This document shows, piece after piece, positions 14,291 through 39,756 of a stretch of DNA of 64,000 nucleotides. The position numbers were made by a program, and so were the translations under genes. Under the pieces are notes generated by a model. That model worked only from the letters and a program-made list of their open reading frames with translations, did no database searches and was not told the origin of the DNA. The stretch is taken from positions 124,001 through 188,000 of the forward strand of contig NZ_CP045490.1 of assembly GCF_009392895.1 (NCBI RefSeq), given 5' to 3'. Position 1 is the first letter of the stretch; each line of letters starts with the position of its first letter. Source of the stretch: Natronorubrum aibiense (GTDB taxonomy: Archaea; Halobacteriota; Halobacteria; Halobacteriales; Natrialbaceae).

Positions 14291-14406
14291 CACGATATAC
14301 TCCAAGAGTAGCGATAAAAAGATTGCTGTCGCGACAGTCAGGCTATCGCTGGGTGAAACCGACACAAAGCAGTGGTATTCAATAGTACTGCCCCTGACAA
14401 CTCGCT

Positions 14407-14946: not shown

Positions 14947-15000
14947 CCACACGAACGGCCCCAAGCGAAGTATTATGCGCCGGTAGTGTAAAGAACACAC

Positions 15001-15777: not shown

Positions 15778-15872
15778 GATCGCTGGCCCGAACGGTCGAT
15801 ATGGCGTGCTACGCGCCGGCCCATCAAAACAGTTATGTGAATATGTACCAAACCACACGGCGAACGTAGGCA

Positions 15873-17144: not shown

Positions 17145-17166
17145 TGATCGCCGTCAAATACGGTGT

Positions 17167-17667
17167 TCACTCCGCCTGTAAGATGTTCTCTCTCATCTCA
17201 TCAGAGAGCATACTCATCAGTTCGGTGTTCGTCTGCACTTCCTGCATTACGAATCTGGAGGACGTTTCGTTGACGCCATCGATCGCAATGATTTCGTCGA
17301 TAAGCTGGTTCATCTGGTCGCGGTCTTGCACGCGGGAGCGGACGAGAAAGTCGATGTCGCCCATCGTGTAGTAGACATCTACGATCCCGTCGATGTCGAC
17401 CAGTTGACTGCCGATTTCGTCGGCGTATCCTTGTTCGTGTGTGACGGAAACCTCTGTGAGGACGGTCATGTCCATTCCGAGCGCGTGGGGATCGATCGTC
17501 ACGGACGGCTTCGTGATGACCCCATTCTCTTTTAGCTTCTTCATCCGGTAGTGGATCGTCGATTTCGAAATATCGAGTTCGGCCGAGAGCTCTTCGAGGC
17601 TCCGCTCGTAATCGCGCTCAACAGCTTCCAAAATTTTCAGGTCGGTTTCGTCGAGGTCCGTATTCAT
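17167..17667 (-). CDS. Lrp/AsnC family transcriptional regulator
   Basis: The 166-residue protein has an N-terminal helix-turn-helix (LEELSAELDISKSTIHYRMKKLKENGVI, about residues 20-50) and a RAM-type ligand domain with VYYTMGDIDFLVRSRVQD. Such regulators sense amino acids. It is encoded on the same strand as the omega-aminotransferase gene 168 bases upstream, so regulation of beta-alanine or gamma-amino acid breakdown is a reasonable inference. Confidence 0.92.
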   Translation of the reverse strand: MNTDLDETDLKILEAVERDYERSLEELSAELDISKSTIHYRMKKLKENGVITKPSVTIDPHALGMDMTVLTEVSVTHEQGYADEIGSQLVDIDGIVDVYYTMGDIDFLVRSRVQDRDQMNQLIDEIIAIDGVNETSSRFVMQEVQTNTELMSMLSDEMRENILQAE

Positions 17668-17835
17668 TGGTACATGTCAGTCGCGTTTCGATAGCTATGT
17701 GACTGTCGTTTCACGCGCTATTGAACGTGGAAACGGCGCCGGATCCACCCGAGACGGTACACAGGCCGGAAGAACGCGCCTGTGGCTGTCCTCGGCTGAA
17801 CGGAACGTCGTCCAACAACCCCTTCGGACGTTCGT

Positions 17836-19179
17836 TCAGCGGTTCATCGCCCCGTCAGACACTTCGAGCGCGTCGTCGAGGACCTCGATGGCCTCGTCGA
17901 TGTCGTCCTCAGTAATCGTCAGTGGTGGCGCAATGATTAGGGTGTTGATCATGTTCGCGATGTAGACGCCGCGGTCGGCGGCCGCCGCGGCGACGTCGTC
18001 GACGACGGTCGATCCTGTCGAGATCTTGTCCTCTCGCTCGCCGAAGGGGACGCGCTCGTCGGGGTCTTTCGTCAGTTCGATCCCGCGGAAGAGGCCGACA
18101 CCCCGCGTGTCACCGACGCTCGGATGCGCGTCGGCCAGTTCCTCGAGTCGCTGCCCGAGATAGTCGCCGACGTCACTGGCGTGTTCGATGAGATTCTCTT
18201 CCTGATAGGTCTCGATGGCGGCGAGACCGGCGGCACAGGCGACGGGATGGCCCGCGTAGGTGTGGCCATGACAGAACATCTCGTCTTCGAAGTGGTCGGC
18301 GATTTCCGGCGTGACGATCGTCGCGCCGAGGGGCACGTACGCACCCGAGAGGCCCTTGGCCATCGTCATAATATCAGGCTGGACGTCGAAGACATCAGAG
18401 CCGAACCACTCGCCGGTGCGGCCAAAGCCGGCCATGACTTCGTCACAGATCAACAGCGCACCGTGGTCGTGGGCGATCTCTTTGAGCCGTGGCAGGTACT
18501 CGTCAGGCGGAACGAGAATGCCGTTCGAACCGACGACGGGTTCGACGAGGATCGCCGCGACCGTGTCGCCCTCGAGCATCAGCATCTCGTCGATGTACTC
18601 GAGGCTCTCCATCGGCTCGAGCGTCGAGCCGTAGGCGTACGGATCGGGGGCTTTGATTGCACCGGGAACGCCGGGTTCGGCCATCAGCCGTCGGGGATCG
18701 CCCGTAACGCTGATCGAGCCGGCGGTGGCACCGTGGTAGGAGCGGTACCGCGAGATGATCTTTTGTTTCCCCGTGTACATGCGGGCGATCTTGATCGCAG
18801 CCTCGACGGCTTCCGTCCCACTCGTCGAGAAGAACGTCTTCGAAAGGTCACCCGGCGTCACTTCGGCGAGTTTCTCGCCGAGTTTCGCACGCGCTTCGGT
18901 CGCAAAGCCGGGCGCGAAGTACGCCCCTTCGTGGGCCTGTTCTGCGATCGCATCGGCGACGGCGTCGGCCGAGTGGCCGAGGTTCGAACACATGAGTTGG
19001 CCCGAAAAATCGATCCACTCGTTCTCGTGTGCGTCCCGAAATCGGACCCCATCGCCGCCGACGATCTCTGTCGGTTCGACTTCGCTCTGGTAGGACCACG
19101 TGCCGAAGACGTACTCCTTGTCGAGTTTCTCGACGTCGGTGCGGCCGTCCTCGTCCGTCGATTGTGTTTGTTCTGTCAT
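17836..19179 (-). CDS. Class III (omega-amino acid) aminotransferase
   Basis: The 447-residue PLP enzyme has STSGTEAVEAAIKIAR for phosphate binding, YHGATAGS, the aspartate motif ICDEVMAGFGRTGEWF and the Schiff-base lysine in MTMAKGLSGAYVPLGA. It belongs with beta-alanine/taurine/4-aminobutyrate:pyruvate or 2-oxoglutarate transaminases. The divergent neighbour is a CoA-acylating semialdehyde dehydrogenase, so amino group removal to a semialdehyde followed by acyl-CoA formation is likely. A TTATA element near 19204-19216 supports the ATG at 19179. Confidence 0.88.
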   Translation of the reverse strand: MTEQTQSTDEDGRTDVEKLDKEYVFGTWSYQSEVEPTEIVGGDGVRFRDAHENEWIDFSGQLMCSNLGHSADAVADAIAEQAHEGAYFAPGFATEARAKLGEKLAEVTPGDLSKTFFSTSGTEAVEAAIKIARMYTGKQKIISRYRSYHGATAGSISVTGDPRRLMAEPGVPGAIKAPDPYAYGSTLEPMESLEYIDEMLMLEGDTVAAILVEPVVGSNGILVPPDEYLPRLKEIAHDHGALLICDEVMAGFGRTGEWFGSDVFDVQPDIMTMAKGLSGAYVPLGATIVTPEIADHFEDEMFCHGHTYAGHPVACAAGLAAIETYQEENLIEHASDVGDYLGQRLEELADAHPSVGDTRGVGLFRGIELTKDPDERVPFGEREDKISTGSTVVDDVAAAAADRGVYIANMINTLIIAPPLTITEDDIDEAIEVLDDALEVSDGAMNR

Positions 19180-19325
19180 GCTCTACCATCCCAATAGGAC
19201 ACCAGTATAATAGTCTTTTCGAGAGGAAGCCGGTTTAGTAGTCTACTGTCTAGGATATCTTCGAGAGTTAGGAGTTTATTTATGAAAACTCGAATTTAGT
19301 GGGAAACCATCCGCTAACACCGAAG

Positions 19326-19333
19326 TATTTATT
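19326..19333 (+). promoter_or_regulatory. TATA box of the semialdehyde dehydrogenase gene
   Basis: TATTTATT is centred 27-28 bases upstream of ATG 19357, typical of a leaderless haloarchaeal promoter. Confidence 0.65.
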
Positions 19334-19356
19334 TCCTAGTCCACGAGAGACACTCT

Positions 19357-20838
19357 ATGGTCGAAGTAGCCCCACCAGATGGAGACACCGAGGTCAAAAA
19401 CTACGTCAACGGCACGTGGAAAACTGCTGATGGTTCTGAACACAACACACTCACGAACCCTGCAACGGGCGATGCGCTCGGATCAGTCACGTTTAGCTCG
19501 GAAGCCGACGTCGACGCCGCTGTGAGTGCCGGCGAAACCGCGTTCGAGGGGTGGTCGTCGCTCCCGGTCGAAGAACGGATTCAGCCGCTGTTCAGACTCA
19601 AAACACTCCTCGAGGACCATCAGGACGAACTCGCCGAACTGCTCGTTCAGGATCACGGGAAGACTCTCGCGGAGGCCCGCGGGGAACTTCGACGCGGGAT
19701 CGAGAACGTCGAGGTCGCGTGTGGTATCCCGTCGATGATGCAGTCGGGGTCGCTTTTGAACGCCGCGCCGGAGATCGACGAGAGCGCGGTTCGGAAACCG
19801 CTCGGCGTCTTCGCGGCGATCACGCCGTTTAACTTCCCGGGCATGATCCCACTGTGGTTCCTGCCGTACGCAGTCGCCACCGGGAACAGCTTCATCTTGA
19901 AACCGAGCGAACAGAACCCGCTGGTCGCCAACCGCCTGTTCGAACTCATCGACGAGGCGGGCTTTCCCGACGGCGTCGTCCAGTTAGTCCACGGTGGCGT
20001 CGACACGGTCAACGCGTTGATCGACCACGACGGCGTTGCAGGGATTTCCTTCGTCGGCTCGACGCCGGTCGCGAAACTCATCTACGAACGTGCCGCCGCG
20101 AATGGCAAGCGCGTGCAGGCTCAGGGCGGGGCGAAAAACCACATCATCGTCACCGAAACCGCAGACCTCGAGTTCGCTGCCGAAAAGACGATCTCGTCGG
20201 CGTGTGCCTGTGCCGGCGAGCGGTGTCTCGCGAACGACATCGTTCTCGTCGAGGAGTCCGTCTACGACGAGTTCGCCGACCTCGTCGTCGAGCGCGCCGA
20301 GAGTCAGGTCGTCGGTAACGGCCTCGAAGACGGAACCGATATCGGCGCGCTGATCAGTGCCGAACACGAACAGCGCGTCCGCGAGTACATCGACACCGGC
20401 ATCGAGGAGGGTGCGACAGTTCTCCTCGACGGTCGTGATGTCGCCGTCGAGGGACACGAGAACGGCAACTTCCTCGCGCCGACGGTGTTCGGTGACGTCA
20501 CACAGGAGATGACGATCTCCCAGGAGGAGATCTTCGGCCCCGTGCTGGGCCTCTCGCCGGTCGATTCGGTAGACGATGCGATCGAGCGCATGAATGCGAG
20601 TCGATTTGGGAACGCAGCGAGTCTGTTCACGGGGCGTGGTGCGGACGCCCGCAAGTTCCGCCACGAAGGCGAAATCGGGAACCTCGGCGTCAACGTCGGC
20701 ACGTCGGCTCCGATGGCGTTCTTCCACTTCGGTGGGTGGAAAGACTCGTTCTTCGGCGACCTCCACGCTCAGGGTGAAGACATGATCCACTTCTACACCG
20801 ACAAGGCCATCTACATCGAACGCTGGCCCGACGCCTGA
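19357..20838 (+). CDS. mmsA: CoA-acylating (methyl)malonate-semialdehyde dehydrogenase
   Basis: The 493-residue aldehyde dehydrogenase has the features that separate MmsA from ordinary ALDHs: QAQGGAKNHIIV in place of the general-base Glu motif, and the nucleophile in CAGERCLAND. It should convert malonate or methylmalonate semialdehyde with CoA and NAD to acetyl- or propionyl-CoA. Head to head with the omega-aminotransferase gene across 177 bases, it completes a beta-alanine or beta-aminoisobutyrate route. Confidence 0.87.
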   Translation: MVEVAPPDGDTEVKNYVNGTWKTADGSEHNTLTNPATGDALGSVTFSSEADVDAAVSAGETAFEGWSSLPVEERIQPLFRLKTLLEDHQDELAELLVQDHGKTLAEARGELRRGIENVEVACGIPSMMQSGSLLNAAPEIDESAVRKPLGVFAAITPFNFPGMIPLWFLPYAVATGNSFILKPSEQNPLVANRLFELIDEAGFPDGVVQLVHGGVDTVNALIDHDGVAGISFVGSTPVAKLIYERAAANGKRVQAQGGAKNHIIVTETADLEFAAEKTISSACACAGERCLANDIVLVEESVYDEFADLVVERAESQVVGNGLEDGTDIGALISAEHEQRVREYIDTGIEEGATVLLDGRDVAVEGHENGNFLAPTVFGDVTQEMTISQEEIFGPVLGLSPVDSVDDAIERMNASRFGNAASLFTGRGADARKFRHEGEIGNLGVNVGTSAPMAFFHFGGWKDSFFGDLHAQGEDMIHFYTDKAIYIERWPDA

Positions 20839-21570
20839 TACGGGCCGGCTATCGCATCATCAACACGTCTCCGAACGGCGATTGCGACTGACATTCGACC
20901 ACAACACTTATTAAATCATATTACTATGTGTGTTAGTAACGGCCACACAGCCGTAGCCGCTCGATCGGAGCGCAGACGAGAGCACCATCAGCAGACCGCG
21001 ATCGGATCGGGGTGTCACTGACCGATAGTGTACACCTGCTGCAGCCGATAGCCAGCACTCGAGTGCGAGTCTCGAGCGCGGTCGTCCGGGCGCGTGCGTC
21101 GGCTCGAGTGCGCGCCCTATACTGCCTGACAGACAGTATATTCGATCACGCGTGACGTCACGAAACGGCGTCCAGTAGCCTGAAAGCGGCTCGAGTTGGA
21201 CCCTGATCGAACGATTCAACCACTTCCGTTAGTCATGCTGGGAGCATCTCGCTCCCGAATGTCACTCAACGGTCAGCCGAACCCCACTTTGTGCGGGGTC
21301 GCCTGAACACTCCTGTGATACGATTGCTGTCGGTCAGTTCCGGCGCACTCGCGACATCCTGTGGGCGCGCCGGTAACTCGTGACAGCAACCCGTATAAAC
21401 GGTTATCGAGCCGGGTATCTGCCATCCCTTTTTGAACTGTGCCACTGACGAAGTCGTGTGGCCGGTACTCGTCAGTCGCCCCGGTCTCGAGAGCGAACTG
21501 ATCGGTTTGTACGTCGAGACAGGTGTCGGCCAGTTGCAGTTACGCCGGGAAATTGGTACAGCGGACCGTC
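20839..21570. other. Gene-free interval between convergent genes
   Basis: No convincing gene is seen; a 102-codon reverse frame at 20911-21219 has Arg/Ser-rich composition unlike the acidic neighbours. The interval holds a TTATTAAAT stretch near 20908-20917, a 23-bp palindrome at 21118-21140 and a small CCCC...GGGG hairpin near 21281-21301. Confidence 0.5.
21118..21140. repeat. 23-bp palindrome in gene-free interval
   Basis: TATACTG and CAGTATA form perfect 7-bp arms around a 9-base centre. It does not lie next to a recognised promoter, so its role (operator of an unrecognised transcript or terminator) is open. Confidence 0.4.
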
Positions 21571-21966
21571 TCAGTGGCTCTGATCCGTGTCGTCGGACAG
21601 GTCTTCGACGAGTTCGACGATGTATCCCGATGGATCGGTCGCGAACGCGATTCGAATGTTCGAGCGCTCGATTTCGGTTGGCTCACCCACGATTTCGCTT
21701 CCATGCTCGTCAACGAGCGTTTCGAGGGTATCATCGATGTCCTCAACGGCGATCGCGACGTGGGCGATCCCGGACGGCTCGAGATCGCGGTCGGTATCAT
21801 CGTACTTGAACTGGATCTCGGTCTCGCTTTCGCCACGCACGTAGTAGTTCGTCGCCCCGTCATCCCCGACGAAATCGCGGGTGTGCTCGAGGCCGAGGCC
21901 GTCACAGTAAAAGTCGGTCGTCGCGTCGATGTCGTCGATCCACACTGCGGTGTGCAAGACGTCCAT
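21571..21966 (-). CDS. VOC-family (glyoxalase/dioxygenase fold) protein 1
   Basis: The 131-residue protein has two beta-alpha-beta-beta-beta repeats with the metal-ligand pattern of lactoylglutathione-lyase relatives: LHTAVWIDDID with His near the start, AHVAIAVEDID with a second His, and IVELVED with a terminal Glu. It may be a glyoxalase-type isomerase or an epimerase. It is the last of three co-oriented genes with an SDR and a second VOC protein. TTTTAA at about 21988-22000 suggests its own promoter. Confidence 0.85.
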   Translation of the reverse strand: MDVLHTAVWIDDIDATTDFYCDGLGLEHTRDFVGDDGATNYYVRGESETEIQFKYDDTDRDLEPSGIAHVAIAVEDIDDTLETLVDEHGSEIVGEPTEIERSNIRIAFATDPSGYIVELVEDLSDDTDQSH

Positions 21967-22059
21967 GCGATACTCACTGAGGCAGCTGTTAAAAGTGTAG
22001 CGCCGCGGACTGTCAGTCGAACCACTCGTTCAGCGGGCTCGAGAAACAAATGCCGTCAG

Positions 22060-22821
22060 TCAGAGCATCTCGAGTTTATCCCGCCGGTAGAGGTCCAGTT
22101 CGGTTACCGCGTTTGGTGACTGTTGGCTGGCGGCGAAGACGATCGCGTCGGCGACGTCCTCGGGTGCGGTCACCTCGCCGGGCTCGAACCGATTTTCGGC
22201 GACGGTGTCCGCGTCCCGGAACTCGTCGGCGAACGTCGTTCTGACCTCCGACGGGTTCACGATCGAGACGCCGATATCGTCCGTTCCGACCTCGGCTGCG
22301 AGACTCATCGCAAACCCTCGTGTCCACCACTTCGATCCCGCATACACGGGGCTGCCAGAACGTGGGTACTTTCCGGCGAAGCTCCCGACGAAAACGATCA
22401 CGCCCGCCGTCTCCCGAAGGTGTGGCATCGCCGCTTGCGTCGTAAAGAACATCCCATCCATGTTGACGGCCATCACCGTTCGGTACTGCTCGAGATCGAC
22501 CTCGTCGATCGGGACGCCGACCTCGGTGCCGGTGCCGGCGTTGTTCACGACCACGTCGAGACCGCCGAACGTGTCGACGGTCGTCTCGACGGCGTCGGCG
22601 ACCGCCTCCTTGTCAGTCACGTCCGTTGGAATCGCCAGCGCCTCGACATCGTGCTCCGATTCGATCTCTGTGGCGAGCTCTCGAAGTCGATCCTCGCGCC
22701 GCGCGAGAAGTGCGACATCCGTGCCTTCGTGTGCGAGTGCGTGGGCTGTCTCGAGGCCGATTCCCGAACTGGCACCGGTTACCAGCGCTGTCTTGCCATG
22801 GAGTGTGGTTTCAGCATCCAT
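22060..22821 (-). CDS. Short-chain dehydrogenase/reductase
   Basis: The 253-residue protein is a canonical SDR with TGASSGIG cofactor binding, NNAGTG, catalytic Ser in VGSFAG and YAGSK as the active YxxxK. It should reduce a ketone or oxidise an alcohol with NAD(P)H; substrate unknown. The TTTTTGG element near 22841-22850 sits 27 bases upstream of ATG 22821. It lies between two VOC genes on the same strand. Confidence 0.9.
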   Translation of the reverse strand: MDAETTLHGKTALVTGASSGIGLETAHALAHEGTDVALLARREDRLRELATEIESEHDVEALAIPTDVTDKEAVADAVETTVDTFGGLDVVVNNAGTGTEVGVPIDEVDLEQYRTVMAVNMDGMFFTTQAAMPHLRETAGVIVFVGSFAGKYPRSGSPVYAGSKWWTRGFAMSLAAEVGTDDIGVSIVNPSEVRTTFADEFRDADTVAENRFEPGEVTAPEDVADAIVFAASQQSPNAVTELDLYRRDKLEML

Positions 22822-25094: not shown

Positions 25095-26409
25095 ATGCTA
25101 GAGGTCCACCGCACTCACCGAGCGAAAATCCGCAACCACTCACAGGTGGCGGAGCCGCTCGACCGGCACGGGTGGTCGGCCAGCAAGCTCTGGAACGTCG
25201 CCAACTACCACTCCCGAGAAGTGTGGGAAGAAACCGGGGAGATTCCCGACCACGGGGAGTTGAAAAACGAGTTGAAGACCCATCCAAAATACAAGGGGAC
25301 TCCATTCACAGTCCAGTCAGCGGGTTCTGGAGGAACTCGCTGAAGCCTTCAACTCGTGGTACTCCTCAGACGACAAACGGGGCAATCCGCCCGGCTACCG
25401 CAAAACCAACTACTACGACCAACAGGGCCGCCGCGTCCACGAAGAACACCCGCGCTCCACCGTGACGTGGAAGCAAAACGGCATCCGTCACGACACCAAG
25501 AACAACCGCGTTCGCCTTTCGAAAGGCGCAAATCACAAGGAGCATCCCCGAGCGTGGGAATACATCCTTGTCGAGTACGAGACGCGGCCCAGTGTAGAGG
25601 TTGATAACCTGCAACAGGTTCGCGCTGTCTACGACCAGCAGAACGAGCGATGGGAGTTGCACCTCGTCTGCAAAGACGAAATCGAGACGCCCACCGCACC
25701 CGGCAACGAGACAGCGGGCATCGACCTCGGCATCAGCAACTTCGCCGCCGTCGCCTACAGTACCGAGGAAGCAGACCTCTACCCCGGAAACCGCCTGAAA
25801 CAAGACGGGTACTACTTCCCGAAAGAAATCGCCAAATGCGACGACAGCAGTGGCGACAGGGCCACTCGATTCCACAACAAGTGGTCAGAACGCCGCACCC
25901 ACTTCTTCCACTCCTTAGCGAGACACATCGTTGAACGGTGTGTTGAGAAGAGTGTTGGTCGCATCAACCTCGGGAAGCTCAACGGTATTCGAGAGGACGA
26001 GAACGGCGGGTCGAAGAACTGGGGCAAGCACGGCAACCTCGACTTGCACGGGTGGGCGTTCGACCGCTTCACCTCGATTCTCGAATACAAGGCGAAGGTT
26101 GAGGGCATCGAGGTCGTGGAAGTGTCCGAGCGAGACACGAGTAAAACGTGTTGCGTGTGCGGTAGAGAAGACGACAGTCAGCGTGTTGAGCGTGGCCTAT
26201 ACGTCTGCAAGTCGTGTGACGCAGCGTTCAACGCCGACGTGAACGGGGCGGAGAACATCCGCCTCAACATCAACGAAAGTAACTCCGAGTCTGCGGCCAG
26301 TTTGGACGGGGATAGGAGTACCGGCTGGTTGGCACAGCCAGCAGTCCACCTGTATGACCTCTCCTGCGGATTCCAACCGCAACGAGAGCTGGTGGACTGC
26401 AAACCGTAA
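25095..26409 (+). pseudogene. tnpB: tnpB (IS200/IS605 family RNA-guided nuclease) with a one-base frameshift
   Basis: The first part (25095-25298) reads MLEVHRTHRAKIRNHS... to HPKYKG. One G too many in the GGGG run at 25295-25298 shifts the frame to a premature stop near 25343; removing it gives YKGLHSQSSQRVLEELAEAF and an open frame to 26409. The rest is intact: first RuvC Asp in TAGIDLGISNF, a GIRED segment in the RuvC-II region, zinc ribbon CCVCG...CKSCD, and final Asp in NADVNGAENI. No tnpA accompanies it. It could be a recent mutation, a sequence error or a functional frameshift. Confidence 0.85.
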
Positions 26410-28974: not shown

Positions 28975-30141
28975 ATGACGGATTCGACCACACCAGTAGT
29001 CGCGGGAGTCAGCCAACTCCCGAACGGGACGTACGACATCCCGGAACGTGATCTCGCACTCGAGGTGATTCTCGACGCGCTGGACGACGCCTCGCTGTCG
29101 CCGGCGGATCTCGACGGGCTGTACATGTCCGCTCCGAGAGCGTGGACGCCGCAGAAGTTCTTCTCAACGTATCTCAACCACCAGTTGGGACTCGACATCG
29201 ATCGGGCGATGGAGATCGCAACCGGGGGCACCAGTGGGGGACACGCGTTCCACTCAGCCGTATCGGCCGTCCGAAGCGGTACGATCGACACCGCCGTCGT
29301 GTTCGCGATCGAGCGTAACTCGCTGATCGAGACGACCGGCCCGTACTTCGAGTACGTGCTGCGGATCTTCGACGTGGAGTTTCAGTCCCCCATCGGGCTG
29401 TCGGTGCCCGGCGTCTACGCACAGAGCCTCCAGCGATACGCGCACGAACACGACGTCGCGTACGAAGACGTCGCCGAGATCGTCGTCAAGAACCGCGAGA
29501 ACGCCTACGAGGACCCGAACACGCTGTTCGACGAGCCCGTAACACGCGAGGACGTCCTCGAGTCGCGACCGATCGCCGACCCGATCACGCTGCTCGAGTG
29601 TCCAGCGCCGTGTGACGGGGGCGCGGCGGTGGTCGTGACCAGTGCCGACGTCGCAGCAGCTGCGAGCGAGCCGGTCGAAGTCGCCGGGATCGGCTCTCAT
29701 CACGCCCAGAGTCACCTGCTGATGAACCACGACGCGCCCGTGACCGAACTCCCAGCGGTCGGCAACGCGGCTCGAAAGGCAAGCGAGCAGGCGACACAGC
29801 CGATCGACGAGATCGACGTGTTCGAGCCGTACGCGCCGTTCCCGCACATCGAGGCGATCATCACCGAGGAACTCGGCCTCGCCGACCGCGGCGAGGGCGT
29901 CGACGCCTGCCTCGAGGGCAAAACCGCGCCGGACGGCGAGTTCCCGATCAGTCCGTCCGGCGGCTGTCTGGGTCGTGGCCATCCGCCGCTCGTGACGCCG
30001 CTGCTCAACCACGTCGAGGCGGTTCGCCAGCTTCGCGGGACCGCCTCGACACAGATCCCCGACGCGAACAGCGTCATGACGACATCCGAGCACGGCCACG
30101 TCAACGGCGCAACGGCGACGATCTTTCGCACGGAGGCCTAA
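28975..30141 (+). CDS. Thiolase-superfamily protein lacking the nucleophilic cysteine
   Basis: The 388-residue protein has the SCP2-thiolase fold, with DLDGLYM, a C-terminal PSGGCLGRGHP segment carrying the GHP histidine, and NGATATIF. At the position of the acyl-accepting Cys (NACASG in the family) it reads ATGGTSG, with Gly85 instead. It is followed after 3 bases by a DUF35 protein. Cys-less thiolase-fold proteins paired with DUF35 partners include retro-aldolases such as Ltp2-ChsH2 in steroid side-chain breakdown, so C-C cleavage without acyl-enzyme formation is a good hypothesis. ATG 28957 is an alternative start. Confidence 0.83.
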   Translation: MTDSTTPVVAGVSQLPNGTYDIPERDLALEVILDALDDASLSPADLDGLYMSAPRAWTPQKFFSTYLNHQLGLDIDRAMEIATGGTSGGHAFHSAVSAVRSGTIDTAVVFAIERNSLIETTGPYFEYVLRIFDVEFQSPIGLSVPGVYAQSLQRYAHEHDVAYEDVAEIVVKNRENAYEDPNTLFDEPVTREDVLESRPIADPITLLECPAPCDGGAAVVVTSADVAAAASEPVEVAGIGSHHAQSHLLMNHDAPVTELPAVGNAARKASEQATQPIDEIDVFEPYAPFPHIEAIITEELGLADRGEGVDACLEGKTAPDGEFPISPSGGCLGRGHPPLVTPLLNHVEAVRQLRGTASTQIPDANSVMTTSEHGHVNGATATIFRTEA

Positions 30142-30144
30142 CAG

Positions 30145-30540
30145 ATGCCGGAAACACCCTACACCGACCCGTTCTGGGCGGCACTGGCCGACGGCGACTT
30201 CCTCATCCACCGCTGTGAAGAGTGTCAGTCGACGTACTTCCCACCAGGGCCGGTCTGTCCACACTGTCAGTCGACGGCCGTCGAGTGGGAGGCGTCCACG
30301 GGAGCCGGAACGCTGTTCTCGTTCACTCGACAGCATGCTACAGCACCCGGATTCGACGACCAGCTCCTCGTCGGTGTGGTCGACCTCGACGACGGCCCGC
30401 GCGTGCTGGCCGCCATCGACGGCTCGTTCGACGACCTCGAGATCGGCGATCGAATGCAACTTGAGCCGACCGAGTACGACCAGAAATTCGATCGAGAGCG
30501 ACTCGAGGACGCGCCGTTTTTCGTCGCGGTCCCGCGCTAG
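30145..30540 (+). CDS. DUF35 (OB-fold, rubredoxin-like zinc ribbon) protein
   Basis: The 131-residue protein has an N-terminal helix (YTDPFWAALADGDFLIHR), a zinc ribbon CEEC...CPHC at about residues 24-40, and a C-terminal OB fold with GTLFSFT. DUF35 proteins bind acyl-CoA and bridge thiolase-superfamily partners. The 3-base gap from the Cys-less thiolase gene implies co-translation and a complex. Convergent with an MFS gene 32 bases away. Confidence 0.9.
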   Translation: MPETPYTDPFWAALADGDFLIHRCEECQSTYFPPGPVCPHCQSTAVEWEASTGAGTLFSFTRQHATAPGFDDQLLVGVVDLDDGPRVLAAIDGSFDDLEIGDRMQLEPTEYDQKFDRERLEDAPFFVAVPR

Positions 30541-31745: not shown

Positions 31746-31835
31746 TGCTGATCGTTCGTGGAGCGGTTAGAAACCTGTTTTGGTAGTGGTACGATAGGTT
31801 CCGAAACTGTGACTGTATGCTATCCGGTAACGATG

Positions 31836-31844
31836 TACTTATTT
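31836..31844 (+). promoter_or_regulatory. TATA box of the thiolase operon
   Basis: TACTTATTT is centred 29 bases upstream of ATG 31869 and should drive the four-gene operon to 36196. Confidence 0.6.
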
Positions 31845-31868
31845 CGATGGGCTGAGCACGTACCCGAT

Positions 31869-33047
31869 ATGCGAGATGCATATCTGATCGGAGCCGGGCA
31901 GTCACCGTACGGTGCCTTCCCGGACGAGAGCTACCGGTCGCTGTTCCGGACGGCGTTCGAGGCCGCCGTCGAGAGCGTCCCGAACGGCCTCGAGACCGAT
32001 GACGTCGACGAGGCGTTCGTCGGCACCCTTGGTGTCGGGGGCCGCCAGCTCGGGCTGCCGGGGCCGGCCGTCACCGAACACGTTGGACTCGACGGCGTCC
32101 CGTGTACGCGGGTCGAAAACGCCTGTGCGGCGAGCGGGTTCGCCGTGCGACAGGCCGTCCAAGCCGTCAAATCGGGAATGGCGGACGTCGTCCTCGCGGG
32201 CGGGTTCGAGATCATGACTGACACGAGTTCGGACGCGACGAAGTACTGGCTCGGCGTCTCCGGCGAGACCGAGTGGGAACGGCTCTCGGGCACGACGTTT
32301 TCTGGCGTCTACGCTCAGATGGCCAGCGCCCACATGGACGCCTACGGGACGACGCGAGAACAGCTCTCTCACGTCGCGGTCAAGAACCACGCGAACGGCG
32401 CGAAAAACCCCCACGCCCAGCTGGGGTTCGAGTGCTCGCTCGAGGACGCCCAGTCGGCCCCGGTCGTCGCGGACCCGCTGAATCTCTATCACTGCTGTCC
32501 GACCTCCGACGGCGCGGCCTGTGCATTGATCGTGAGCGAGGACGTCGTCGACGACTATACCGACGAGCCGATTCGGGTTGCCGGCGTCGGCGCGGGCAGC
32601 GACACCGTCGGGCTCTTTCAGCGCGACTCGTATACGGGTGTCCCCGCGAGCCAGCGGGCGGCCGAGGCGGCCTACGAGATGGCAGAAATCGAGCCGGGCG
32701 CAGTAGATTTCGCGGAGGTCCACGACTGCTTCGCCATCGCCGAGTTGCTCGCCTACGAGGATCTCGGCTTCTGCGAAAAGGGCGACGCTGGCGAGTTCGT
32801 CGAGTCGGGTGCGACGAGACTCGAGGGTGAACTCCCGGTCAACACCTCCGGCGGCCTCAAGTCCAAGGGCCACCCGATCGGCGCGACGGGTGCCGGTCAG
32901 GTCGTCGAGGCGTTCAAACAGCTCTCGGGGACCGCGGGCGACCGACAGCTCGAGAATCCGACGCGGGGACTGACACACAACGTCGGCGGCAGCGGCGGTG
33001 CGGCCGTCGTCCACGTCTTCGAGAAGGAGACGGAGGTGAACGCATGA
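31869..33047 (+). CDS. Acetoacetyl-CoA-type thiolase (SCP2 family), catalytically complete
   Basis: The 392-residue protein has the nucleophile C86 in RVENACAASGFAVRQAV, the VHDCFAIAELL segment and NTSGGLKSKGHPIGATG with the active-site His. It should catalyse Claisen condensation or thiolysis of beta-ketoacyl-CoA. The start at 31869 (MRDAYLIGAG) fits the TATA box; a longer frame upstream to 31758 is not needed. Its last four bases overlap the next gene (ATGA), so translation is coupled to the HMG-CoA-synthase-like/DUF35 fusion, as in archaeal thiolase/HMGCS/DUF35 complexes. Confidence 0.9.
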   Translation: MRDAYLIGAGQSPYGAFPDESYRSLFRTAFEAAVESVPNGLETDDVDEAFVGTLGVGGRQLGLPGPAVTEHVGLDGVPCTRVENACAASGFAVRQAVQAVKSGMADVVLAGGFEIMTDTSSDATKYWLGVSGETEWERLSGTTFSGVYAQMASAHMDAYGTTREQLSHVAVKNHANGAKNPHAQLGFECSLEDAQSAPVVADPLNLYHCCPTSDGAACALIVSEDVVDDYTDEPIRVAGVGAGSDTVGLFQRDSYTGVPASQRAAEAAYEMAEIEPGAVDFAEVHDCFAIAELLAYEDLGFCEKGDAGEFVESGATRLEGELPVNTSGGLKSKGHPIGATGAGQVVEAFKQLSGTAGDRQLENPTRGLTHNVGGSGGAAVVHVFEKETEVNA

Positions 33048-34465
33048 CCGCGATCACTGCCATCGGGGCGTACGCACCACGGTTCCGTATCACGTCGGAG
33101 GCGTTCACCGAGGCTTGGGGCCAGTTCCAGGCCGCCGGCATCTCTGAGAAGGCCGTTCCCGCCGCCGACGAGGACGCCCTGACGATGGCCTACGAGGCGG
33201 CCACTCGAGCGCTCGAGGCCGCCGACTGCACGGGCGAAGACATCTCCTGGCTCGGCTTTGCCACCTCGAACCCGCCGCTTGCCGAAGAAGACCTTACGGC
33301 GCGCCTCGGCGCACTGCTCGCACTGCCGGCGGATTCGACGCGACACGTCTTTGCGGGCAGCACGCGCGCCGGCACTCGCGCGCTCTGGGCAGGGATGGAC
33401 GCCGTCGACGCGGGCTCGAAACGGGGACTGATCGTTGCAGCCGACGCCCCACAGGGAGAGCCCGACGACGCGGTCGATCAGGCTGCCGGCGCGGGGGCAG
33501 CGGCGTTCGTCCTCGAGACGGACGGCGAGGCGACGATCGTCGACCGCGCGGAGTACGCGGCCGCCTACCCCGGCACGCGATTCCGGGAGGCCGACTCCGA
33601 GACGACCGACGGCCTCGGCATCACGCAGTACGATCGGCAGGCGTTCGCCGAGACGATCGGCGGAGCCGTCGACGGCCTCGAGGTCGATCCGGACCCCGAT
33701 GCGGCGGCGATTCAGGCCCCGGACGGCAAACTTCCCTACCGCGTTGCCGGGCCAGCAGGCGTCGGCACCGACGAGATTCAGACGGCTGCAACGGTTCACG
33801 AACTGGGCGATCTCGGGGCTGCAAGCGTCCCGGTTTCGATCGCGCGTTCACTCGCCGACGGTCACGAGTCAGTGCTGGCCATCTCCCACGGGAGCGGGGC
33901 CGGGGCAGACGCGTTCGTCCTCGAGTCCTCGAGCACTGTTCCCGCCGTCGTCGACCTCGAGGGCGGCGACACGCTGTCGTACGCTGAGTACCTTCGCCAG
34001 CGCGGCGTCGTGACGAGCGGCCAGCCTGCAGGCGGTGGCGCGTACGTCAGCGTCCCGACGTGGAAACGCTCGCTGCCACAGCGCTACCGCCTCGAGGCCG
34101 GCCGCTGTCCCGACTGCGGGGCGCTTTCGTTCCCGCCGGGCGGGGCGTGTGACGACTGTGGCTCGCTCGAGGAACCGACACCGGTCGAACTCTCGGGTAC
34201 CGGCACGATCGAGGCCGTGACGACGATTTCGCAAGGCGGCGCGCCGCCCGAGTTCGCCGAACAGCAGGCCCAGTCGGGCGATTACGCCGCGGCGATCGTC
34301 GCCCTCGAGAGCGAGAACGGCGACACCGTCAGCGCGCCGGCGATGGGAACTGACGCGGAGCCCTCGGCGTTCGCAGTCGGCGACCGCGTCGAAACGACGA
34401 TCCGCCGGATCTACACACAGGAAGGTGTCACCCGGTACGGGTTCAAGATCCGCCCCACAGCGTGA
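33044..34465 (+). CDS. HMG-CoA synthase-like/DUF35 fusion lacking the catalytic cysteine
   Basis: Residues about 1-340 form a ketosynthase-III/HMG-CoA-synthase fold (start MTAITAIGAYAPRFRI, late SHGSGAGADAF). Residues about 345-473 are a DUF35 module with zinc ribbon C355/C358 and C369/C372 and an OB fold. In HMG-CoA synthase the acyl-Cys lies in NACKAGT; here the text is FAGSTRAGT, with Thr107 in its place. The fusion fits a thiolase partner subunit, perhaps structural and channelling rather than condensing. Fused versions are known in archaea from general knowledge; loss of Cys is seen directly. Confidence 0.83.
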   Translation: MTAITAIGAYAPRFRITSEAFTEAWGQFQAAGISEKAVPAADEDALTMAYEAATRALEAADCTGEDISWLGFATSNPPLAEEDLTARLGALLALPADSTRHVFAGSTRAGTRALWAGMDAVDAGSKRGLIVAADAPQGEPDDAVDQAAGAGAAAFVLETDGEATIVDRAEYAAAYPGTRFREADSETTDGLGITQYDRQAFAETIGGAVDGLEVDPDPDAAAIQAPDGKLPYRVAGPAGVGTDEIQTAATVHELGDLGAASVPVSIARSLADGHESVLAISHGSGAGADAFVLESSSTVPAVVDLEGGDTLSYAEYLRQRGVVTSGQPAGGGAYVSVPTWKRSLPQRYRLEAGRCPDCGALSFPPGGACDDCGSLEEPTPVELSGTGTIEAVTTISQGGAPPEFAEQQAQSGDYAAAIVALESENGDTVSAPAMGTDAEPSAFAVGDRVETTIRRIYTQEGVTRYGFKIRPTA

Positions 34466-34506
34466 CGAAGGGGAACGTTTTTGCTCGTGACACGAGAGCA
34501 GTAACC

Positions 34507-35397
34507 ATGCAAATCGCAGTGCTCGGAGCCGGCAGTATGGGCCACGGAATCGCACAGGTGTCCGCGATGGCGGGCCACGACGTCGTAATGCGAGACATCG
34601 ACGAGACGGTTGTCGAGGACGGCCTCGAGGGCATTCGATCCAACCTTCAGGGTGGCGTCGACCGCGACAAACTCACCGCAACCGAGATGGACGCCACCCT
34701 CGAGCGCATCACGGGAACGACCGACCTCGAGGCGGCCGTCGCAGACGCCGACCTCGTCATCGAGGCCGTTCCGGAGGACATGGATCTCAAGCGGGACGTC
34801 TTCGCGGATGTCGAAGCGGCTACGGGCGGGGAGACGATCATCGCCTCGAACACGTCCTCACTGTCCGTCACGGAGATGGCCAGCGTGCTCGAGCGACCCG
34901 AACGCGCCGTCGGATTGCATTTTTTCAACCCGCCACATCTCATGGACCTCGTCGAGATAGTCATCGCCGAACAGACTGACGAGCGAACGGAGACGTTCGC
35001 CGTCGACTACGTCCGGGATCTCGAGAAGGAAGACGTCGTCGTCCGCGACACGGCCGGCTTCGCGTCTTCGCGACTCGGCATCGCGCTCGGCCTCGAGGCG
35101 ATCCGGATGGTCGATCAGGGCGTCGCCAGCCCGGCTGACATCGACGAGAGCATGTCGATCGGCTACGGCCACCCGATGGGGCCGCTCGAGTTGACCGATC
35201 ACGTCGGCCTTGACGTGCGTCTCCACATCGCCGAACACCTTCGGGAGGAACTCGGCGAACGATTCAGGCCACCCCAGTCGTTGCGCCGGAAGGTCAGAGC
35301 GGGGAAACTGGGGAAGAAGACCGGCGAGGGCTACTACGTCTGGGAGGACGGCGATCGCGTCGGCATGAGCGGCGAGTGGGGTGAGGACGATGAGTGA
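34507..35397 (+). CDS. 3-hydroxybutyryl-CoA / 3-hydroxyacyl-CoA dehydrogenase
   Basis: The 296-residue protein has GAGSMGHGIAQV at its N-terminus, the catalytic-His segment GLHFFNPPHLMDLVE and a C-terminal helical domain ending KTGEGYYVW. It oxidises L-3-hydroxyacyl-CoA with NAD. It is third in the thiolase operon, 41 bases after the fusion gene, and overlaps the following enoyl-CoA hydratase by 8 bases, which gives a complete hydration-oxidation-thiolysis set. Confidence 0.92.
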   Translation: MQIAVLGAGSMGHGIAQVSAMAGHDVVMRDIDETVVEDGLEGIRSNLQGGVDRDKLTATEMDATLERITGTTDLEAAVADADLVIEAVPEDMDLKRDVFADVEAATGGETIIASNTSSLSVTEMASVLERPERAVGLHFFNPPHLMDLVEIVIAEQTDERTETFAVDYVRDLEKEDVVVRDTAGFASSRLGIALGLEAIRMVDQGVASPADIDESMSIGYGHPMGPLELTDHVGLDVRLHIAEHLREELGERFRPPQSLRRKVRAGKLGKKTGEGYYVWEDGDRVGMSGEWGEDDE

Positions 35398-36196
35398 ACT
35401 GACGGACGACTACGAGCTGCTCTCGGTCGAAATCGGCGAGCACGCCGACCGTGTCGCGACGGTCGCCATCGAACGTCCGGACGCGCGTAACGCGCTCAAC
35501 GGCACGGTTCGGACGGAACTGAAAGACGCCGTCGCCGCAGCCGAGGCGGACGACGACGTCCGCGTTCTCGTGCTCACGGGCGGCGATGGAACCGGCGCGT
35601 TCGTCGCCGGAGCCGACGTCACCGAGTTCAAAGACCGCGGCGTGATCGAGCAACGCGATGCCAGCGCGCGTCCGCGGATCTACGAGACCGTCGACGACGC
35701 CTCGATTCCGGTCATCGCCCGCATCAACGGTCACGCACTCGGCGGCGGCTGTGAACTCGCCCAGGCCTGTGACGTCCGGATCGCCCAGTCGGGTGCGAAA
35801 CTCGGCCAACCCGAAATCAACCTCGGGATCATCCCCGGCGGTGGCGGCACGCAGCGGCTCGCACGTCTCGTCGGCGAGGGACAGGCGATGAAACTGATCC
35901 TCTCCGGCAAACTCATCGACGCCGACGAAGCCCACGAGATCGGTCTCGTCGACGACGTGTCCGACGAAGACGAGCTCGACGACCGCGTCTACGATCTCGC
36001 CGGATCGATGGCCGCCAAAAGTCCGATCGCTCTCGAGTTCGCCAAGAAAGCCGTGAAAGCGAGTTCCCGGATGGGACTCGAGGAAGGTCTCGAGTACGAG
36101 GCCGAACTGTTCGTCCAACTGTTCGCGACCGACGACAAAGACGAAGGGATCGATGCGTTCCTCGAGGGCCGCGAGCCCGAGTTCACGGGCGAGTAA
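35390..36196 (+). CDS. Enoyl-CoA hydratase
   Basis: The 268-residue crotonase-fold protein has FVAGADVTEF, GGGCELAQACD and PEINLGIIPGGGGTQRL with both catalytic glutamates. It hydrates 2-enoyl-CoA. ATG 35390 is preferred over the GTG at 35381. The 8-base overlap with the dehydrogenase gene shows translational coupling. Last gene of the beta-oxidation operon. Confidence 0.92.
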   Translation: MSELTDDYELLSVEIGEHADRVATVAIERPDARNALNGTVRTELKDAVAAAEADDDVRVLVLTGGDGTGAFVAGADVTEFKDRGVIEQRDASARPRIYETVDDASIPVIARINGHALGGGCELAQACDVRIAQSGAKLGQPEINLGIIPGGGGTQRLARLVGEGQAMKLILSGKLIDADEAHEIGLVDDVSDEDELDDRVYDLAGSMAAKSPIALEFAKKAVKASSRMGLEEGLEYEAELFVQLFATDDKDEGIDAFLEGREPEFTGE

Positions 36197-36706: not shown

Positions 36707-39460
36707 TTAGTTGTTAATTCGTTGGTAGGTGATTGTGTTTCGCTCTCGGAACACGATCGCAACCATACCCGGGTCGCGACTTCCCTCGAGGTCAATCGTC
36801 GTGGTGTCGCCTTCGGTTACGGTTTCGTCGTCGTCCCACTCCATCGGTTCGGTGTGAATCGGTTCGACGACGACACCCAGTTCGTCGGCGTCAATTTCGT
36901 CACCACCCGCATGTTCGATGGTGAGTTCCTCCGCAGCTGCACGGTATTCGACCTCAAACTCGGCATCCGGAACGATGACGTGATTACGAATCTCTCGTGG
37001 CTCGTCGGGGACGACCCACTGAACCGAGAGTTCAGTGCCGGTATCGAACGCGCCGAGTTCGACTTCGTCGTCGGCTGTCAACGTGTCGTGTTGATCCGAC
37101 GGCTGGACGGCCGTCGGCTCTCCATCGGAGAGAACCTCGAAATGCGCTGCGTCGCGGTCGATCTGCCCGCGGTAGATGGCTACAATCCCGTCTTCCCGTT
37201 CGTCGAACGTGAAGGCGAATCGGGGCTCGGGCGTGAAGTTGAAAATCGACCGATGGCTAACATAATTTTCTCCCTCCTGAATCAGCATGACGGTAATGCG
37301 GTCATCGACGCCAACGTCGTCGATGACGATCCCGTCCCCGGTGTTCAGCGTGTCGTGCTCCTGTGCGAACAGGGCTTGTCTCCGATCACCGTCGAATTGA
37401 CCATCGTTCCGGTGCTCGACCGAGAGCGGCTCCGGATCAGCCGGCTGTTCGCCCGTATAAACGAGTTCGACCGCTCCCGAATCTGGATCGTACGTCGCAT
37501 CGAACGACTCCCGACCGGCAGTCGTGTGTCCGAGCCGGTGCTCAGTCTCGTCGTCCACTGTCCACACGAGTTCGACCCTCGAGAACGGTTCGACGTCGAT
37601 CGTCATCTCGTCACCCGGTTTGAAGGTATCGTACTCGTCGGCGGGCTGGCTGTCCGCTGGCTCATCATCGATCCGAAGCTCGAGGTCGTCCGTCTCGATT
37701 CGATCGCCGTCGACGTGGTCGACCGTAACTGTCCCATCGGCGTCGTCGTACGTGAGATCGATGCGTGTGGACGGTCGAATAACCGACTCTTCTATGACGA
37801 TGGGGTCGTCCGGCTCGAGCCACTCGATGACGACGCTGGCTCCATGTTCGACATCGCCGAGGTCGATCTCGTCGCCGTTCGTGAGCGTCTCGGTAACGTC
37901 GGCGAACTGCACGTCTCCCGGTTCGTCGTCGACCAGCACGCGGAACGTGTCTGCATCCCGTTCGTGATCGTCCCAGTAGCGTGCAACGACGCTGTCGGGA
38001 CGCTGAGAGAGGTGCACTCGCGGTGGTCGAACGCGGAAGCGAACGAGCGGCCGCTGGCCACGGTTCGGATTGGCTGGCGTCGACAACTCGAGTGTGATCC
38101 GGTCACCAAGGGAGACATCGTCGACTGTCATCGTCTCACCGGTCGTGAGCGATTCCGAATCGAGCTGGATCTCCTCCCGGGTCGGGGGAGACGCTTCGTT
38201 GTCGGCTTGGTGAATCAACTCGAGACGGTCCGAATCGGCCTCGAGTTCGCCGACGTAGGTGAACTCGACGGTGTCCGTGTCGACGTCATAGTCGAGTTCG
38301 AACGAATCTCGCCCGACGAGTACCGTCTCGTAGTAGTAGTACACGTCCTCGGCTTCGTCGAACCAGCGGAGGCCCACGTCGGCGATCGGGCCCGTTTCGA
38401 GTTCGAAGGTGTCCCCTTCGGAAAACGCCTCGTAGTCGTCGTCGAGTTGCTCGTCCGCCAGTTCGCCATCCATCCAGACCTCGAGGTTTGCCGTCTCGAT
38501 TGACTCGCCGTCGGTGTGTTCGATCGTCACGATCCCCTCGTCGGCGTCGGCATGCGCTCGAACCCGTGCGTCGGGTGCCGCAGCTCGATCACGTTCTGGC
38601 GGCTGATCGACGACTGCTTCGACGTGGACGATGTCGTTCGAGTGATCGCGGTCGACCGTCGTCTCGACGAACTCCCCTCGTTCGATCCGCTCGAGTCGCT
38701 CGAGCAGCCACTCGTCGTCGACGTCGGCGTCCGAGGCGAGTTCGAGAACGTACTCGCTTTCGGTCGTTCCCGAGCGCACTGTCGGCGACTGTGCGAACCC
38801 GACGCCGATCGATTGGACGGTCCCGTCGAAGTCGATGTGGAGGTCATCCTCGAGGTTCGGGAGGAAAACCACGTACGCCTGCGACTCGAGGCGGTCGAAG
38901 ACGTGCTCGGTTACTTCGGGGCTGACGAGAACCGAGTCAGCGTCATCCTGGGCCGACTCTGCAACCGTTTCGGCAATATCGGTCGACTCCGATCCGGAAA
39001 CGACGACCAACTGTTCGTCCGCAGCGGCGAACGCATCGCCGTCGTCGAGCGTCCCAATTCGCCAGTCTCCATCCTCGTCGGCATCACCTGCGTCCGGTTG
39101 ATCGAACGACCCGGTGACGGCGCTGAGTCGGACGCTGCCGTCTCCGGCGACCGCTGAGACGGCGCTGGATACCGACTCCGAGTCGACAGCCGAATCGACA
39201 GCTGAAACGTGGTCGAGGATCTGTCGTGTCTCGTACTCGAGTTCATCTTCGTCGATTTCCTCGACGTGTACGTAGTGGAGTCGTCGATATTTCGTATCGA
39301 GGGTCGATTCTGCGGGGACCAGTTCGAGGACGGTCTCGAGGTCGGACGACAGCGTCGTCTGACCATCGCCGTCAGCGTCATCCGCCGCTGCTGCGGTGTA
39401 ACCGGAGAGGGCAACAGCTGCGACGGTACCGCTTCCGACGATCATTTCACGTCTTCGCAT
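36707..39460 (-). CDS. Large Tat-exported protein with tandem pilin-like beta domains
   Basis: The 917-residue, very acidic protein starts MRRREMIVGSGTVAAVALSG, a Tat-like signal without a lipobox Cys. Residues about 40-290 form an N-terminal globular region. From about 298 to 917 roughly seven repeats of 80-95 residues follow (near 298, 386, 480, 566, 654, 748 and 833). Each has the outline VTIEHTDGESIETANLEV, a variable strand pair, a GD-x-hydrophobic turn and a closing RVELVW-like strand. This resembles the C-terminal beta domain of archaeal type IV pilins. No C-terminal anchor is visible. A surface or adhesive role is inferred. Confidence 0.8.
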   Translation of the reverse strand: MRRREMIVGSGTVAAVALSGYTAAAADDADGDGQTTLSSDLETVLELVPAESTLDTKYRRLHYVHVEEIDEDELEYETRQILDHVSAVDSAVDSESVSSAVSAVAGDGSVRLSAVTGSFDQPDAGDADEDGDWRIGTLDDGDAFAAADEQLVVVSGSESTDIAETVAESAQDDADSVLVSPEVTEHVFDRLESQAYVVFLPNLEDDLHIDFDGTVQSIGVGFAQSPTVRSGTTESEYVLELASDADVDDEWLLERLERIERGEFVETTVDRDHSNDIVHVEAVVDQPPERDRAAAPDARVRAHADADEGIVTIEHTDGESIETANLEVWMDGELADEQLDDDYEAFSEGDTFELETGPIADVGLRWFDEAEDVYYYYETVLVGRDSFELDYDVDTDTVEFTYVGELEADSDRLELIHQADNEASPPTREEIQLDSESLTTGETMTVDDVSLGDRITLELSTPANPNRGQRPLVRFRVRPPRVHLSQRPDSVVARYWDDHERDADTFRVLVDDEPGDVQFADVTETLTNGDEIDLGDVEHGASVVIEWLEPDDPIVIEESVIRPSTRIDLTYDDADGTVTVDHVDGDRIETDDLELRIDDEPADSQPADEYDTFKPGDEMTIDVEPFSRVELVWTVDDETEHRLGHTTAGRESFDATYDPDSGAVELVYTGEQPADPEPLSVEHRNDGQFDGDRRQALFAQEHDTLNTGDGIVIDDVGVDDRITVMLIQEGENYVSHRSIFNFTPEPRFAFTFDEREDGIVAIYRGQIDRDAAHFEVLSDGEPTAVQPSDQHDTLTADDEVELGAFDTGTELSVQWVVPDEPREIRNHVIVPDAEFEVEYRAAAEELTIEHAGGDEIDADELGVVVEPIHTEPMEWDDDETVTEGDTTTIDLEGSRDPGMVAIVFRERNTITYQRINN

Positions 39461-39756
39461 GGCTGACCGTTCTGTAGTATTACACTTTAACCTGTTGAAA
39501 ATATAAACAGTGGTCTGGAATGTCACCAATAGCTGTTGCAACACCAACAACCTGAAATCACGGACGCCGATTCGGTCGTCCAGGAACCGTTGCGTTGGCG
39601 ACCTACAGACACACGGCGCGTACGATCTCATGATCAGGCCGGCGGTTCGGTTCACTGCCGATCGAGCACGCGACGTTCCCTCGAGAGCGACTCGAGTCCG
39701 TCGAGGAACGATTTCACAGTGTGCTGGTTTGTAGTGTCAGCGACCACTGTGTCGCT

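Follow-up and report, generated by a model that had tools for sequence, protein, structure and literature searches.

The window analysed here is a stretch of 64,000 nucleotides with a GC content of 60%. It covers positions 124001-188000 of the 356,702-base contig NZ_CP045490.1, which belongs to a genome of 4.35 Mb in 4 contigs; its relatives mark it as haloarchaeal, the nearest named ones being Natronolimnohabitans, Natrialba and Halomarina. The forward strand carries a pair of genes in which a thiolase homologue is followed, after a gap of 3 bases, by a gene for a DUF35 protein. The pair has the following features:

28975..30141, forward strand: Cys-less SCP2-type thiolase homologue of the "YAP" type, 388 amino acids, a candidate retro-aldolase subunit (open reading frame, Pfam, orthologues)
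30145..30540, forward strand: DUF35 partner with a zinc ribbon and an OB fold, 131 amino acids (Pfam, PDB match, adjoining in 22/22 orthologues)
29227..29229, forward strand: Gly85 codon; the residue shares a column with the nucleophile Cys of thiolases and is aligned to CtSal Gly89 (invariant in 22/22; alignments)
29824..29847, forward strand: E284-P-Y286-A-P288-F-P-H291 motif, with Tyr286 aligned to TcLtp2 Tyr294 and CtSal Tyr302 (alignments)
29974..29985, forward strand: R334-G-H336-P, whose His336 is the His of thiolases and is aligned to TcLtp2 Tyr344 and CtSal Gln352 (alignments)
30088..30099, forward strand: E372-H373-G374-H375, the C-terminal catalytic loop, with Gly374 aligned to CtSal Gly391 (alignments)
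30214..30267, forward strand: zinc-ribbon cysteines C24, C27, C38 and C41 of the DUF35 protein (invariant in 22/22 DUF35 proteins)

The reading frame of the thiolase homologue begins with the ATG at 28975, and its stop codon ends at 30141. The open frame upstream contains other possible starts (TTG at 28840, ATG at 28957). The ATG at 28975 fits the N-termini of the orthologues and is the likely start, its exact position being provisional. Both thiolase domains are recognised by Pfam (Thiolase_C_1, E=3.9e-26; Thiolase_N, 9.4e-7). The solved structure closest in sequence is a Cys-bearing thiolase, 7yvy, which scores 162 bits versus 103 for 6ok1. An AlphaFold prediction (window protein, L007, the window's own paralogue) had a pLDDT of 32.7 and was too poor to use. 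The DUF35 protein contains the zf-ChsH2 (1.1e-11) and OB_ChsH2_C (2.5e-11) domains, stands alone at 131 residues without a Pfam MaoC domain, and has its best PDB match in 6ok1_B, the DUF35 domain of ChsH2 in the Ltp2 complex.

Both the nucleophilic Cys and the HDCF His of SCP2-type thiolases are absent from the window protein, which has Gly85, in the loop T83-G84-G85-T86-S87, and Tyr286 instead. The His of the GHP motif is present as His336. Residue equivalences were obtained by counting along the alignment rows of TcLtp2 (6ok1) and CtSal (9myr, offset 24). Gly85 and Gly374 correspond to CtSal Gly89 and Gly391, Tyr286 to TcLtp2 Tyr294 and CtSal Tyr302, Pro288 to TcLtp2 His296 and CtSal Cys304, and His336 to TcLtp2 Tyr344 and CtSal Gln352. 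TcLtp2 carries Tyr294 in YDHF and Tyr344 in GEAY, and CtSal has Tyr302 and Cys304 in YDCY. In each of the three proteins, the column of His336, Tyr344 and Gln352 follows the Tyr at a distance of 50 residues. The residues that act as acids in Ltp2 (Tyr344) and Sal (Cys304) are both absent, their columns being occupied by His336 and Pro288. In the CtSal study (PMC12329534), Tyr302 is proposed to accept the proton of the β-hydroxyl, which is touched by the NH of Gly89; Gly391 belongs to the oxyanion hole, and a Gly at the nucleophile site is held to exclude thiolysis.

The haloarchaeal orthologue set has 22 members, the window protein included: 15 from 125 genomes of the same family and seven from other families in a draw of 391 genomes of the class. 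Within the family, a protein with at least 58% identity is found in 15 of the 125 genomes, and the next matches listed have at most 37%. The other 21 orthologues are 55-76% identical to the window protein. T83-G84-G85-x-S87, E284-x-Y286-x-P288-F-P-H291, G333-R-G-H336-P and E372-H373-G374-H375 are invariant in all 22, position 86 being Thr or Ser. The Asp of the Y-D-x-F motif, which Sal and Ltp2 have in common with thiolases (H-D-x-F), is replaced by Ala (Thr or Val in a few), and the x is Pro. No Cys occurs at the nucleophile column or within the C-terminal E-H-G-H loop in any of the 22, so that thiolase chemistry looks impossible; judged from the sequences, the case for its absence in the window protein is strong. 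Invariant positions number 21/28 within the four catalytic loops, whose limits were set post hoc, versus 81/360 elsewhere, which argues against a decayed subunit. A DUF35 reading frame adjoins the thiolase homologue in 22/22 orthologues; the offset between the end of the thiolase stop and the nearest DUF35 start codon ranges from -4 to +4 bases. The recurrence of Gly85 and of this adjacency in every orthologue shows that the pairing is not due to chance and that the lack of Cys is no sequencing error. The first-pass annotation is thus borne out in its observation that a Gly replaces the acyl-accepting Cys and that a DUF35 gene follows after 3 bases, and the lack of conserved active-site residues that it named as refuting evidence is not seen. 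Its suggestion of Ltp2-like catalytic tyrosines agrees with the alignments for one of the two: Tyr286 is at the base position of Ltp2 and Sal, and the second, Tyr344, is His336 here.

The gene has a patchy distribution. It is plasmid-borne in N. magadii and two Halomarina, whereas in seven others it belongs to contigs 1.5-4.2 Mb long. A scan of viral contigs with the family alignment found no relative. In bacteria, plasmid homologues with 32-34% identity and the same residue combination occur in Cupriavidus, Achromobacter, Roseomonas and Pacificitalea; they have Gly in place of the nucleophile Cys and the motifs E-(P/L)-Y-A-P-C, R-G-H-P and E-L-G-N. With the C. necator protein as the query, searches of whole genomes (E of 1e-70 or better) found a YAP protein in 1/398 genomes drawn from one proteobacterial phylum, in 6/349 genomes of one family (seven loci), and in 1/346 genomes of a draw centred on an Ilumatobacteraceae genome, where there are two copies with the same motif and a zinc-ribbon reading frame near both. 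Tyr286, Pro288, Arg334, His336, E372 and Gly374 are retained in all bacterial copies found. E284 is Gln in one of them (L114), and H373 and H375 are seen in haloarchaeal copies only.

A tree computed without the active-site columns unites all 22 haloarchaeal YAP proteins with five from bacteria in a single clade (100/100); a second clade (100/99) contains Ltp2, Sal and 4u4e along with five Y-D-x-F relatives. Nesting of the window protein within the Ltp2/Sal clade is not supported by the tree. Since the YAP clade lies outside the Ltp2/Sal clade, the mechanism of its members cannot be read by descent. A grouping of all Gly/Tyr types was not rejected by the AU test (p-AU 0.50); as far as the sequences tell, the Gly/Tyr exchange may have had one origin or two.

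The nucleophile and base residues change together. In a set of 51 rows, the pairs are 35 Gly/Tyr, 14 Cys/His and two Ser/His, with no exceptions to the occurrence of Gly with Tyr. The same holds in six bacterial genomes, for which every SCP2-type reading frame was taken from 43 regions chosen for their likeness to a YAP query and a Cys-type one. Once two frame fragments are removed, this set has 47 loci, comprising 18 His-type, 22 other Gly/Tyr (mostly Y-D-x-F) and seven YAP. All 29 Tyr-type proteins have Gly, and all 18 His-type proteins have Cys (16) or Ser (2). With 29 Gly/Tyr versus 18 Cys(Ser)/His loci (L108-L114, L145-L180), retro-aldolase-like proteins may outnumber SCP2-type thiolases in these six genomes, the regions having been picked by two queries. 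Two of the Gly/Tyr proteins (L109, 265-2523; L110, 486-2762) have G-G-G-G-G-C and Q-S-Y-E-N-F motifs and, with a second Tyr aligned to Tyr344, a pair of tyrosines like that of Ltp2; a YAP gene lies some 5 kb away on the opposite strand. Another Cys-less thiolase-like type is present in the window's own genome, where two paralogues (C1:3119484-3120602 and C1:1354793-1355917; L003, L005) have Ser at the nucleophile column, in T-S-S-S-G-G, and keep HD-x-F.

The significance of the DUF35 neighbour depends on the organism. The search for DUF35 used five proteins as queries with a threshold of E 1e-5 and may overlook divergent members. In the six bacterial genomes it adjoins 28/29 Gly/Tyr loci versus 1/18 His-type loci. 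However, among 20 hand-picked haloarchaeal control regions it adjoins 14/14 Cys/His-type loci as well as 6/6 Y-D-x-F loci. DUF35 pairing was therefore dropped as a sign of an aldolase in haloarchaea, where by itself it is no evidence for one. The haloarchaeal Sal/4u4e-like Y-D-x-F proteins, which lack the nucleophile Cys and each lie beside DUF35 (L061, 12283-13997; L089, 5001-6552; L195-L200), are a second class of candidate archaeal aldolases, so that the YAP pair is not the sole archaeal candidate. In Natrinema caseinilyticum such a gene clusters with an acyl-CoA dehydrogenase gene, two MaoC genes and CoA transferase genes.

The window pair can be compared with several known systems. Ltp2-ChsH2(DUF35) of Thermomonospora curvata (6ok1) is the aldolase of the steroid C3 side chain. 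Like the window pair, it has a thiolase fold without a nucleophile Cys, a base, Tyr294, that aligns with Tyr286, and a zinc-ribbon/OB partner. It differs in that Tyr344 is replaced by His336 and YDHF by YAPF in the window protein, which belongs to a separate clade, and in that the window DUF35 protein stands alone; the DUF35 domain of ChsH2 is presumably borne on a MaoC-type polypeptide. Sal-Shy(DUF35) of Comamonas testosteroni (9myr), the aldolase of the bile-acid C5 side chain, shares the equivalents of Gly89, Tyr302 and Gly391 and a DUF35 partner, but Cys304 is replaced by Pro288, Gln352 by His336 and YDCY by YAPF, and the clade is again a different one. The DUF35 of Shy is fused to a MaoC domain, whereas that of the window has none. 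The "thiolase" 4u4e, whose host we take to be Sphaerobacter, and its Y-D-x-F homologues in bacteria and haloarchaea also show the exchange of Cys for Gly and a Tyr in the base column, and many of the homologues share the His of H-P and a DUF35 neighbour. They keep the Asp and lack E-H-G-H, and 4u4e and the five such tree members fall into the Ltp2/Sal clade. The archaeal thiolase/HMG-CoA synthase/DUF35 complex likewise combines a thiolase fold with DUF35 in an archaeon, but keeps the Cys and HDCF, and its HMG-CoA synthase partner is missing from the window gene pair; an HMG-CoA-synthase-like reading frame at 33044 is part of the next cluster, past an MFS gene on the opposite strand. The gene pair ipfD/ipfE of Rhizorhabdus wittichii, described as thiolase-type, resembles the window pair by its description: it acts in ibuprofen degradation, where a retro-aldol step frees propionyl-CoA from a non-steroid CoA ester (PMC9195938). 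It is bacterial, its substrate is an aromatic dihydrodiol, and DUF35 is unnamed in the text of that paper.

In the light of these comparisons, the parallel with Ltp2-ChsH2 drawn in the first-pass annotation stands for the Gly in place of Cys, the base Tyr and the match of DUF35 to ChsH2, and fails for the Asp of Y-D-x-F, which is lost, and for the position in the tree. The weight it gave to the DUF35 partner is not upheld, given the pairing of the Cys-type haloarchaeal thiolases. Its view that an archaeal equivalent would be new has to be softened, as Y-D-x-F proteins with DUF35 make up 6/20 hand-picked haloarchaeal controls and occur also at L089; a literature search, which mostly did not extend to subscription journals, found no archaeal thiolase-fold aldolase. 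Action on another acyl-CoA would in itself have the ibuprofen pathway as a precedent.

From the sequences we infer an activity, a substrate type and a direction for the window pair. The products of the two genes probably, though far from certainly, make up a C-C lyase of CoA thioesters that performs retro-aldol cleavage of a β-hydroxyacyl-CoA. The enzyme would consist of a thiolase-fold dimer capped by DUF35, both the dimer and the physical complex being assumed, and DUF35 would form the substrate cleft, as it does in Sal. Gly85 would vacate the space of the acyl-enzyme Cys, and its backbone NH would hold the β-hydroxyl, whose proton would be accepted by Tyr286. The Cα-Cβ bond would then split to give a ketone or aldehyde and an acyl-CoA enolate. 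The latter would be held by the NH of Gly374 and protonated by His336, aided by the E372/H373/H375 or the E284 group. The alignments make the assignment of Tyr286 as the base well supported, and His336 is most likely the acid. Such an enzyme would probably stand in for the dehydrogenase and thiolase steps of β-oxidation where the β-carbinol is non-oxidisable (e.g. tertiary), or where the desired product is a ketone or aldehyde. The substrate is probably not a steroid. No archaeal steroid degraders were reported among 8,277 genomes in PMC4810484, which speaks against a steroid substrate.

The neighbourhoods were compared for 12 proteobacterial YAP loci, five on plasmids (the whole stretch of 13-17 kb) and seven in genomes (5 kb on each side). 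In this set, which includes close relatives and is not one of independent loci, CaiB is found at 10 loci, acyl-CoA dehydrogenase at nine, and MaoC or enoyl hydratase at six; 3-hydroxyacyl-CoA dehydrogenase (3HCDH) and SDR are found at none. The Roseomonas, Pacificitalea and Achromobacter neighbours include an "acetate--CoA ligase family" protein, MaoC, acyl-CoA dehydrogenase and TTT or TRAP transport genes, with a CaiB transferase also beside the Roseomonas and Pacificitalea genes. The acyl-CoA dehydrogenases indicate an enoyl- or hydroxyacyl-CoA substrate. The missing dehydrogenases were considered as aldolase evidence and set aside as weak. In the six bacterial genomes an SDR lies within 5 kb of 14/18 His-type, 15/22 other Gly/Tyr and 0/7 YAP loci, so that its absence marks YAP loci and not aldolase-like loci generally, and 3HCDH is near only 1/18 His-type loci.

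The haloarchaeal neighbourhoods are more varied. The fetched flanks of the 22 loci contain MFS (12), CaiB (12), SDR (10), M20 hydrolase (10), TAXI and TRAP (8), gamma-glutamyltransferase-like (8), acyl-CoA dehydrogenase (7), enoyl hydratase (6), 3HCDH (6) and MaoC (4) genes. Within 5 kb, acyl-CoA dehydrogenase is found at 7/22, 3HCDH at 4/22 (the window included) and SDR at 6/22. With so few acyl-CoA dehydrogenases and some 3HCDH and SDR genes nearby, the logic of the bacterial clusters is not clearly transferable to haloarchaea. Both genes flanking the window pair are MFS transporters, and there is no acyl-CoA dehydrogenase within 10 kb of it. Farther upstream, at 12-20 kb, the window has M20 and gamma-glutamyltransferase-like genes as well as two for acyl-CoA dehydrogenases, and the gene set shared with other haloarchaeal YAP loci may have become separated from the pair.

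The varied haloarchaeal neighbours would also suit another Cys-independent CoA-ester enzyme on the thiolase fold, which would use Tyr/His acid-base chemistry for decarboxylation of a malonyl- or β-keto-type CoA or for lysis of a β-diketone. His336 and the extra E-H-G-H group could fit a decarboxylase, and the Trypanosoma Sal-like protein TbSLP slowly decarboxylates malonyl-CoA, with a kcat of 0.005 per s. However, CtSal, which has the same Gly/Tyr pair, yields no acetyl-CoA from malonyl-CoA (both in PMC12329534), and acyl-CoA dehydrogenases are near 9/12 proteobacterial loci. Such an activity is unlikely, though it deserves some weight. The same residues might instead work in the synthetic direction, joining an acyl-CoA enolate to a carbonyl compound by aldol or aldol-like C-C bond formation. 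Such chemistry can run either way, with an active site that would presumably look alike for both directions, but the surroundings appear catabolic (transporters, CoA transferases, acyl-CoA dehydrogenases, IclR regulators), making synthesis improbable.

It is less probable still that the protein is a non-catalytic or scaffold subunit whose partner is either a second thiolase or just DUF35. Other systems do include inactive subunits with a thiolase fold, the thiolase nucleophile is absent here, and a Cys-bearing thiolase gene starts about 1.7 kb past the end of the window homologue. That gene, however, lies past an MFS gene on the opposite strand, the fetched flanks of the other 21 loci contain no Cys-type thiolase (at L061 there is a Y-D-x-F homologue instead), and the unusual residues are invariant in all four catalytic loops. 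An ordinary thiolase with a different nucleophile is very improbable, for despite the overall likeness to Cys thiolases and the retained GHP His, Gly occupies position 85 in 22/22 and the invariant Ser87 aligns with the Ser of the normal C-A-S-G motif.

Returning to retro-aldol cleavage, a broader proposal can be made more tentatively, and we regard it as possible but rather doubtful. The YAP clade of haloarchaea, Pseudomonadota and Actinomycetota might be a third, separately built class of thiolase-fold, DUF35-coupled CoA aldolases, using Tyr286-His336 and glutamates instead of the Tyr-Tyr of Ltp2 or the Tyr-Cys of Sal, and acting on a non-steroid substrate to end a β-oxidation spiral with neither hydroxyacyl-CoA dehydrogenase nor thiolase involved. 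The annotation as a thiolase, carried by the N. magadii and Halomarina BCD28 copies ("thiolase family protein"), would be wrong for the clade. If its members are aldolases, C-C lyase chemistry would be added to archaeal acyl-CoA catabolism, the thiolase fold would have reached aldolase activity by a third solution, and a salt-tolerant aldolase would be on offer. The Gly/Tyr versus Cys/His signature is a simple sorting rule for proteins lumped together as "thiolase family". The 29 Gly/Tyr loci in six bacterial genomes suggest that retro-aldol endings of β-oxidation may be commoner than the steroid literature implies.

The rest of the window contains several other features. A catabolic island at 4891-22821 carries BKACE, 3-hydroxyacyl-CoA dehydrogenase, gamma-glutamyltransferase-like, M20 hydrolase, two acyl-CoA dehydrogenase, enoyl-CoA hydratase, class-III aminotransferase, aldehyde dehydrogenase and SDR genes. 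Between this island and the thiolase-like gene is the reading frame 25462-26409, which, like that at 42579-44203, we take from its motifs, judged by eye, to encode a look-alike of IS200/IS605-type transposon proteins. The next cluster, at 31758-36196 on the forward strand, has overlapping reading frames for the Cys-bearing SCP2-type thiolase, an HMG-CoA-synthase-like/DUF35 fusion, 3-hydroxyacyl-CoA dehydrogenase and enoyl-CoA hydratase. The fusion has Thr in the column of the Cys of 6esq_I A-C-K-A-G-T, which is presumably the nucleophile; a Cys-less fusion is odd in itself. A 982-residue reading frame on the reverse strand (36707-39655) has an internal match to the N-terminus of archaeal type IV pilins, and its start or gene model is doubtful. 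Convergent genes for a GH68 levansucrase/invertase and a GH32 protein occupy 46440-49937.
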